A DNA stretch of 64,000 nucleotides from Paenacidovorax caeni (GTDB lineage: Bacteria; Pseudomonadota; Gammaproteobacteria; Burkholderiales; Burkholderiaceae_C). Numbering within the stretch: position 1 is the stretch's first letter; every line of letters starts with the position of its first letter. The stretch lies in the NCBI RefSeq assembly GCF_001298675.1, contig NZ_CYIG01000012.1:1-64000 (forward strand). The letters run 5' to 3'. Below, piece after piece: positions 46,981 through 48,167 of this stretch. The translations under genes and the position numbers were made by a program. Under the pieces are notes generated by a model. That model was not told the DNA's origin. It worked only from the letters and a program-made list of their open reading frames with translations, and searched no databases.

Positions 46981-48167
46981 GGCTGCTGCGCCTGGGCGTT
47001 GAGGTTTTCGAGCGTGCGGCGGTAGATGTTCTTCAGCGGTGCGATGTCGGCCAGTGCGATGTGCTCGTCGATCTGGTGGATGCTGGCGTTGGGCGGTCCG
47101 AGCTCGATGACCTGCGGGCAGATCTGCGCGATGAAGCGGCCGTCGCTGGTGCCGCCGGTGGTGGACAGCTCGGTATCCAGCCCGGTTTCCGCATGGATGG
47201 CTTGCTGCACGGCACTCAGCAGGTCGCCCGGTTCGGTCAGGAAAGGCTGGCCGCCCAGTGTCCACAGCAGTTCGTACTCCAGGCCGTGGCGGTCCAGCAG
47301 GGCGTGCACGCGCTGCTTTAGGCCTTCGGCCGTGGATTCGGTGCTGAAGCGGAAGTTGAAGTCAACCACCACATGGCCCGGAATCACGTTGGTGGCACCC
47401 GTGCCGGCGTGGATGTTGCTCATCTGCCAGCTGGTGGGGGGGAAGAAGGCGTTGCCCGCATCCCAGGTGGTGGCTGCCAGCTCCGCCAGCGCCGGCACGG
47501 CTTGGTGGATAGGGTTGCGCGCCAGGTGCGGGTAGGCGATGTGGCCTTGCACGCCGCGCACGGTGAGTTTGCCCGAAAGCGTGCCACGGCGGCCGTTCTT
47601 CACCATGTCGCCGGTCTGGCGCACCGCAGTCGGTTCGCCGACGATGCACCACGACAGCTGCTCGCCGCGCGCTTGCAGGCGCTCGACCACGACCTTGGTG
47701 CCATCGACAGACGGGCCTTCCTCGTCGCTGGTGAGCAAGAAGGCGATGGCGATGGCCGGCTCAGGGTGTGCGGCGAGGAACTCCTCCACGGCCACGACGA
47801 AGGCGGCAATCGAGGTTTTCATGTCGCTGGCGCCCCGGCCGTAAAGCTTGCCATCGCGCTGCGTGGGGATGAACGGGTCGCTGTGCCACTGCTCTACGGG
47901 GCCGGTCGGCACCACATCGGTATGGCCCGCGAAAACCAGTGTTTTTGCTCCCTTTTCAGGAGCTTCTTGCGCTTGACTGGCGCGCGCTGCAGGTCGTTTG
48001 GCCCATAAATTGCAGACGTGGAAGTGAGGGGGGCCGCTGTCCATGCGTTCGCAGACGAAGCCCAGGGGTTCCAGGCGGCTGGCTAGTAGTTCGAGGCAGC
48101 CTGCGTCCTCGGGAGTGACGGAGGGGCGGGCGATCAGCTGTTCGGTCAGCTGCAAGGTAAGGGACAT
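46977..48167 (-). CDS. dapE: Succinyl-diaminopimelate desuccinylase
   Basis: Metal-dependent hydrolase that releases LL-diaminopimelate from its succinyl form in lysine and peptidoglycan synthesis. The 396-residue protein has [12 protein letters not shown] with the metal-binding His and Asp, [28 protein letters not shown] with the catalytic and metal-binding Glu, and [10 protein letters not shown] near the C-terminus. The ATG at 48167 gives the usual N-terminus [12 protein letters not shown]. Before [10 protein letters not shown] there are about 17 extra residues ([16 protein letters not shown]) encoded by a reverse copy of the dispersed palindromic element. It is grouped with dapD and dapC. 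Confidence 0.95.
47941..48010 (+). repeat. Dispersed palindromic element inside dapE, copy 15
   Basis: Reads TTTTTGCTCCCTTTTCAGGA, then GCTTCTTGCGCTTGACTGGC, GCGCGCTGCAGGTCGTTTGG and CCCATAAATT. It is one of the longest copies, with both flanks retained. It is translated from the other strand in the dapE frame. Confidence 0.9.

Follow-up and report, generated by a model that had tools for sequence, protein, structure and literature searches.

The window analysed here, 64,000 nt of Paenacidovorax caeni DNA, contains 18 copies of a short dispersed repeat (Table 1), every one of which is recovered at E ≤ 2.7e-5 by a profile HMM built from copies of this genome and run over a search space of 864 kb. 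Five of the 18 lie in frame inside lpxK, xseA, pgeF, prmB and dapE. Each of these genes scores above the curated cut-off of at least one NCBIfam model, and in each the matched element spans 17 to 19 codons. The dapE reading frame is long, and its true start probably lies near residue 29. A sequence-only reading of this DNA had placed copies inside the same five genes, none of them breaking the frame, and had assigned those in dapE, prmB and pgeF to one reverse frame. All five frames are indeed open, the codons that it quoted for the latter three genes are correct, and their common frame is the one that we term anti1; unlike this trio, the xseA copy is read in sense2 and the lpxK copy in sense1.

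Table 1. Repeat copies in the window and the five genes that carry a copy in frame, in order of position.
Feature	Position	Strand	Score	Reading and context
Repeat copy	246..298	+	37.3 bits	outside the five genes
lpxK, tetraacyldisaccharide 4'-kinase	3594..4583	-	TIGR00682, 212 bits	
Repeat copy in lpxK	3719..3771	-	27.1 bits	forward reading, frame sense1; 19-residue peptide; no clear insertion
xseA, exodeoxyribonuclease VII large subunit	5948..7321	+	TIGR00237, 412 bits	
Repeat copy in xseA	6563..6613	+	23.9 bits	forward reading, frame sense2; peptide LSKLYLLAQSGKGLEAE
Repeat copy	10638..10690	-	41.8 bits	across 3' end of predicted minus-strand gene 10675-11127
Repeat copy	14272..14321	+	42.4 bits	intergenic
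Repeat copy	15446..15495	+	45.8 bits	between two minus-strand genes
Repeat copy	17375..17428	+	39.1 bits	intergenic; similar to prmB copy (alignment)
Repeat copy	23158..23209	+	43.9 bits	intergenic
Repeat copy	28046..28099	+	47.3 bits	across stop codon of gene ending 28053
Repeat copy	35079..35131	+	36.1 bits	across stop codon of gene ending 35085
pgeF (YfiH family)	38838..39662	+	TIGR00726, 157 bits	
Repeat copy in pgeF	39289..39340	-	25.7 bits	reverse reading, frame anti1; peptide FSALAQADKAPAAPETIA
Repeat copy	44055..44108	+	37.1 bits	at stop codon of minus-strand gene 44108-46069
prmB, ribosomal protein L3 glutamine methyltransferase	46072..46980	-	TIGR03533, 320 bits	
Repeat copy in prmB	46740..46792	+	34.3 bits	reverse reading, frame anti1; 19-residue peptide; without insertion
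dapE, succinyl-diaminopimelate desuccinylase	46977..48251	-	NF009557, 558 bits	model match starts at residue 30
Repeat copy in dapE	47947..47999	+	27.3 bits	reverse reading, frame anti1; 18-residue peptide
Repeat copy	55619..55672	+	27.4 bits	just past stop of minus-strand gene, 3' end 55676
Repeat copy	60044..60097	+	48.9 bits	directly after gene ending 60039
Repeat copy	61953..62005	+	42.1 bits	directly after gene ending 61949
Repeat copy	63413..63465	+	45.4 bits	directly after gene ending 63403

The window also holds a second dispersed repeat, inverted between 23016-23162 and 55247-55400 (94 and 67 nt; 79 and 73% alike) and accompanied by an inverted pair of 50 nt each (55250-55299 and 55464-55513), starting GAGCCTGTTTACGATCTTTT; it looks like another mobile or MITE-like element. 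Positions 1-655 are tandem-like, the 155 nt at 1-155 recurring exactly at 501-655 with related units between. A 300-nt direct repeat (19478-19777 and 21586-21885, 88% alike) lies inside two open reading frames and flanks a CCGCCACC-type repeat stretch at about 20530-21210. No part of the window reached the gathering score of an Rfam family.

Defined from 67 exact-core seed copies, taken from the window together with 800 kb of the same genome, the repeat is about 64 nt in total, running from some 12 to 14 nt upstream of ATAGCTGC to about 50 nt past the first base of that string. It contains AT-rich blocks and an imperfect palindrome, and its near-invariant core, AGCT-N4-GCGC, lies within ATAGCTGCTAGCGCTT. 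The consensus leading into the palindrome is GATAGCTGC; GATA(G) precedes the palindrome, and the consensus carries neither a GTAG nor a CGTC tag at the palindrome end. Across 166 copies outside genes, core positions 2-4 and 10-13 hold one base in at least 99%, a figure inflated because the same profile had found the copies; other positions vary, and no pair of arm positions stands out for compensating change. Predicted hairpins are mostly ordinary in fold energy (z from +0.2 to -3.0 in eight folds of seven copies). The encoded peptides are rich in Ala, Leu and Gln, typically close to PLALxxQAxAAIK in anti1 and to ELLALxGQALEA in sense2. A subtype with GGAGC for ATAGC was considered as a gene-adapted form and dropped, the replacements being mixed; at this position AT is kept in 4 of 19 in-gene copies versus 118 of 166 elsewhere.

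The repeat is abundant. At a threshold of 19 bits there are 185 non-overlapping copies in 884 kb of this genome, a sample of large contigs, not randomly drawn (the window, parts of C1, C2, C3, C5 and C7, and 20 kb of C30). The exact core has 264 matches in the genome versus none for the reversed pattern, and the reversed sequence gave the profile only seven matches up to E 10, the best at E 1.3. In 55 loci (218 kb) from 26 genomes that lack the core, the profile found nothing at 18 bits or above (best 7.4), whereas 19 loci (76 kb) from genomes with at least 100 cores gave 21 matches. The core is found in 15 of 60 genomes, counting this one: 14 of 35 relatives of the same family have it, at 1 to 384 copies each, and none of 24 genomes from other families of the order does. 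Three genomes are single-copy for the core, and one of these (G030) also matches the reversed control once. Close relatives here are named Comamonadaceae records.

Transfer on mobile DNA was considered and rejected, since a window copy is matched by one of 72,556 plasmid records (a 28-kb Diaphorobacter record, under aceF) and by none of 50,697 phage records; in viral contigs chance matches to the 16-base pattern are expected, and these were not counted for transfer. The repeat on that plasmid record (NZ_CP080763.1:10682-10726) lies inside aceF and is a further in-gene case. A replication strand bias, suggested among the G007 matches listed, was likewise set aside: no such pattern is seen by eye in evenly spaced samples of 400 kb each from G018, G007 and G001 (89, 39 and 67 copies).

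To place the copies relative to genes, 184 were scored by the coding potential of the flanking 150 nt on both sides. By this strict test 19 sit in an open frame that codes on both sides, 16 are flanked by one frame on both sides but with a stop, 33 lie between differing frames or strands, 76 adjoin coding sequence on one side and 40 adjoin none. The in-frame total becomes 21 once lpxK and pgeF, which fail the strict test, are added by hand. About one copy in ten is translated in frame, and about nine in ten lie outside in-frame genes. The gene finder, a simple codon-usage program made for this analysis that misses pgeF and trims dapE, puts six further copies inside predicted genes. A gene 3' end adjoins 142 of the 153 intergenic copies; 84 of those 142 are within 10 nt of a stop codon or overlap one. 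Convergent gaps hold 41 copies and make up 67 of 449 gaps, and divergent gaps hold 11 of the 153 copies and make up 90 of the 449 (gaps of at least 50 nt, counted unweighted by length). In-gene copies are weaker on average, at 30.5 versus 37.6 bits. Further element-bearing genes of this genome look, from their sequences, like those for a helicase or restriction subunit (L131:11560-14436), mutL, with the element in its linker (L152:175-2739), a VRR-NUC protein (L124:9403-11088), an acyl-CoA synthetase (L123:1824-3929) and tldD (L135:2672-4132).

The frames in which these copies are read are not random. The 21 in-frame copies of this genome fall into anti1 (10), sense2 (5), sense0 (3), sense1 (2), anti2 (1) and anti0 (0). 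In 3.95 Mb of DNA (this genome, its relatives and the named loci) there are 511 copies, of which 84 are in frame, forming 44 gene clusters; one cluster spans three frames and was counted once, by tie. Expected counts were derived from the share of 417 other copies in which each frame is open, and against these the clusters number 17 versus 11.1 in anti1, 12 versus 10.6 in sense0, 8 versus 1.5 in sense2, 3 versus 7.5 in sense1, 2 versus 4.0 in anti2 and 2 versus 9.2 in anti0. Thus the statistical test of frame preference that the sequence-only reading had called for rejects a uniform survival of open frames over the 44 clusters (Monte Carlo P of about 2e-5). In part the anti1 preference arises because 58% of other copies lack a stop in that frame. 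The sense2 excess is odd, given that 92% of other copies contain a stop there; in seven of the eight sense2 clusters, Glu replaces the consensus stop TAG.

The copies had been proposed to add tolerated peptides to their hosts. This is borne out for dapE, pgeF and xseA, which have extra residues relative to orthologues, but it is not the rule. We compared 11 genes, the five of the window and six sample genes picked for a likely solved relative and hence not random; net gains were taken from printed alignments, in which gap placement is uncertain, and for PurK, AroE, MutS, MurD, MurE and Fmt solved-structure alignments are the sole source. Relative to solved structures the net change is +17 residues for XseA, +13 for PgeF, +12 for DapE, +7 for MurE, +5 for AroE, +2 to +4 for Fmt, 0 to +4 for MurD (with gaps at the element edge), 0 for PurK and PrmB and about -2 for MutS; relative to orthologues, LpxK changes by 0 to +1 at the element. 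Two of the 11 (xseA and pgeF) therefore come near a full-length gain, nine gain 12 residues or fewer, and seven gain about five or fewer for an 18-codon element, with no clear insertion in prmB and lpxK. PrmB aligns without a gap to Thermotoga maritima HemK at the element and, relative to some family members, is about five residues longer immediately upstream of it. The xseA gain is smaller relative to nearer element-free relatives, which already have part of the extra length. In pgeF, the DNA alignment with the Paracidovorax orthologue shows a single 54-nt gap, approximately the length of the matched element; this gap also covers a difference of four residues, which in the protein alignment lies upstream. 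In the 15 elements shown, from 46 candidate pairs, which are diverged, we saw no clean empty site having exact ends or a target duplication. In a model of DapE (20 sequences, mean pLDDT 75), the element part at residues 91-99 is a low-confidence loop (pLDDT below 50) between strands 81-86 and 104-110.

The sequence-only reading had regarded the same peptide at the same site in orthologues from distant taxa as the mark of a coincidental match. Such likeness exists in part: some element-free genomes encode a similar peptide in lpxK, and PrmB is gap-free against HemK as noted. The element-bearing orthologues, however, have AT-rich, element-like codons. With rows split by score and intermediates left out, a division that favours a low-GC3 result, GC3 in the prmB element columns is 37% in 20 element-bearing rows versus 79% in 52 rows without a match, and 80-82% outside the element; for dapE the corresponding values are 36% in 13 rows, 73% in 63 rows and 80-85%. 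The prmB codons are clearly foreign in nature, carrying the AT-rich third positions of the repeat without an insertion at the site.

These sites are also shared. At 18 bits or above the dapE copy is present in 13 of 80 named loci and the prmB copy in 20 of 78, the carriers including Diaphorobacter, Alicycliphilus, Acidovorax, Comamonas, Giesbergeria, Simplicispira, Extensimonas, Ramlibacter and Paracidovorax records. When each copy in the dapE and prmB clusters is compared with all others (about 20 kb per genome for the named loci), the closest is a clustered orthologue in 27 of 29 rows; L027, a tie, and L035, the exception, are closest to L013:11397 and L041:11382, by position prmB copies too. 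Since the nearest copies are orthologous, the dapE and prmB sites look inherited. Several in-gene sites are common to several genera.

The strength of a site follows the copy number of the genome in which it lies. The Spearman correlation of site score with copy number is 0.92 for lpxK, 0.92 for pgeF and 0.90 for xseA (23, 21 and 27 genomes, kinship ignored). Genomes with at least 100 cores score 27-42 bits at lpxK, 22-44 at pgeF and 15-27 at xseA, those with 1-20 cores score 0-22, 0-20 and 0-13, and core-less genomes reach at most 7.4 bits at these three sites. In G006, which has few copies, the extra pgeF residues are kept and the DNA match is down to 10 bits.

We consider it fairly probable that the repeat is a REP-like dispersed element of one bacterial family, whose in-gene copies are inherited and mostly lengthen the host by less than the element. 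Copies would have spread through some copying process. A copy arriving in a gene would survive only where its frame is open and where it falls in a tolerant loop, linker or helix segment; flanking host codons would then be lost, or would be replaced at entry, so that the net gain would usually be smaller than the element. The site would subsequently be inherited, and in low-copy lineages the DNA match would decay, leaving a fossil peptide in some genes. For the encoded peptides, neutrality or near-neutrality is most likely. Several points stand against this explanation, namely the absence of a clean empty site from the 15 elements shown, the divergence of the pairs compared, a copy-number correlation that ignores kinship, the lack of an enzyme tied to the repeat and of compensating changes in its arms, and a sense2 excess beyond simple open-frame survival.

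As to what might move such an element, a RAYT-like Y1 transposase of the genome itself is a tentative candidate. This genome has one Y1 transposase match (237 aa as read), which ends at a repeat copy and has two more copies, one weak, on its other side, making three within 400 nt. In G000, G001, G002 and G007 the repeat stands at the transposase stop codon (28, 16, 40 and 19 bits) and in G013 on the 5' side of the gene; copies occupy both sides in G000 and G001 and one side in G002, G007 and G013. The placement of the repeat among genes is also REP-like. Yet many genes have a copy at their stop codon, in G006 and G018 the transposase has no repeat within 2 kb, and the palindrome is preceded by GATA(G) rather than by GTAG or CGTC. 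Moreover, relatives of the transposase occur in element-rich and element-free genomes alike, and on the transposase tree, most of whose forks are poorly supported, two changes are needed to account for the element-rich genomes, which does not improve on shuffled labels. The tie between repeat and transposase is suggestive at most, and judged by these neighbourhoods and the tree, a RAYT is a weak candidate for the driver of the repeat. Separately, G018 has 20 Y1 transposase matches, several equal in score, together with 384 core copies; the other element-rich genomes have one or two matches each.

It is doubtful that the repeat enters genes by overwriting the codons already there, by way of gene conversion or a DNA-level drive, and that in-gene copies stay close to its sequence only as long as the genome has a large population of the repeat. 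If this were so, a selfish or functional DNA motif would keep rewriting the housekeeping proteins of these bacteria, in many cases with no insertion. Another explanation, which we regard as unlikely, is that the repeat serves as a DNA signal (for uptake or for protein binding, for example) that is kept by selection or biased DNA exchange, with genes drifting toward it in place. The seven core positions that hold one base amid variable neighbours, the arms without covariation and the small net gain in seven of 11 genes are in keeping with a signal, as is the agreement of same-residue codons in prmB, which is 0.78 inside the element versus 0.62 outside. In dapE, however, the same comparison gives 0.68 versus 0.66, and therefore an extra DNA-level constraint is not general. 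The invariance of the core is, as noted, inflated; dapE, pgeF and xseA have gained residues; and the conserved stretch is about 64 nt, whereas known uptake signals are far shorter. In 49 element-free prmB genes we looked for a strong pre-existing likeness to the repeat and found none. Their sites are only mildly repeat-like (median percentile 0.78), and thus a gradual path is not visible.

That the repeat is a classical palindromic element of the Rickettsia type, a mobile insert adding a peptide of about its full length, seems quite unlikely. The parallel with these elements drawn in the sequence-only reading is sound in that copies are in frame and tolerated in housekeeping genes, and the gains of xseA and pgeF over solved relatives and the single pgeF gap fit it; it fails on full-length addition as a rule. 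Nine of the 11 genes gain 12 residues or fewer and seven of these about five or fewer, some of the additional length in xseA is already present in nearer element-less relatives, roughly nine copies in ten lie outside in-frame genes, and RPEs are about 150 bp (PMC10969869). Finally, a chance likeness of common codons to the repeat, which could draw on Ala/Leu/Gln-rich peptides resembling those of many helices and on PurK relatives that are similar to one another at the element site, is barely credible, as the core-less loci, the reversed control and the third-position composition of the element codons already refute it for the whole copy set.

The repeat supplies many protein segments of repeat origin, and relatives that are rich in it, poor in it and free of it can be set next to one another. 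Such a set lets one ask by what route selfish or structural DNA comes into proteins, whether residues are added or replaced, and whether DNA-level processes hold it in place. It also urges caution, in that a conserved peptide or a rare-codon tract in such a genome can stem from a repeat rather than from selection on the protein.

Within the literature searched (Comamonadaceae repeats, REPs, RPEs and RAYTs), we found no description of the repeat, and its core strings occur in no paper; the repeat itself thus appears undescribed. As a kind, it is known. The sequence-only reading had held that a betaproteobacterial equivalent of the Rickettsia elements would be new unless already described, but such cases are in print, REPs inside open reading frames of Thauera, Rickettsia, Xanthomonas and others (PMC3733652) and BREs of Betaproteobacteria, some wholly within coding sequences (PMC3110155). 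The main text of the former makes no mention of Delftia, Comamonas, Alicycliphilus or Polaromonas.

Like REPs (PMC3733652), the present repeat has hundreds of palindromic copies, mostly beside stop codons and in gaps between genes that converge or run in the same direction, and some copies are read in frame within conserved genes and repair genes. Unlike REPs, which are 20-40 nt and tagged by GTAG or CGTC, it is about 64 nt and tagless, and has neither a demonstrated RAYT link nor covarying arms. Like RPEs, it has copies that are read in frame and tolerated in unrelated housekeeping genes (44 gene clusters across 3.95 Mb); unlike an RPE, which adds a peptide, it usually yields a net gain smaller than itself, and most of its copies are elsewhere. 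BREs, too, are dispersed betaproteobacterial repeats with some copies fully in coding sequence, and they are reported in Delftia and A. citrulli. As described in PMC3110155, they are about 90 bp, 69% GC, partly tandem and present in at most 29 copies, and it is by this description that the shorter, dispersed repeat with AT-rich blocks is set apart from them. The present repeat had no match in four Delftia loci and one P. citrulli locus. DNA uptake sequences of Neisseria and Haemophilus are dispersed, have an invariant core of 9-12 nt, and often lie in coding sequence without insertion or near gene ends. The present repeat resembles them in all these respects save the length of the conserved stretch, and unlike them it lengthens some genes. 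What sets it apart among these known systems is the usually small net length change, the sharing of sites and the link to copy number.
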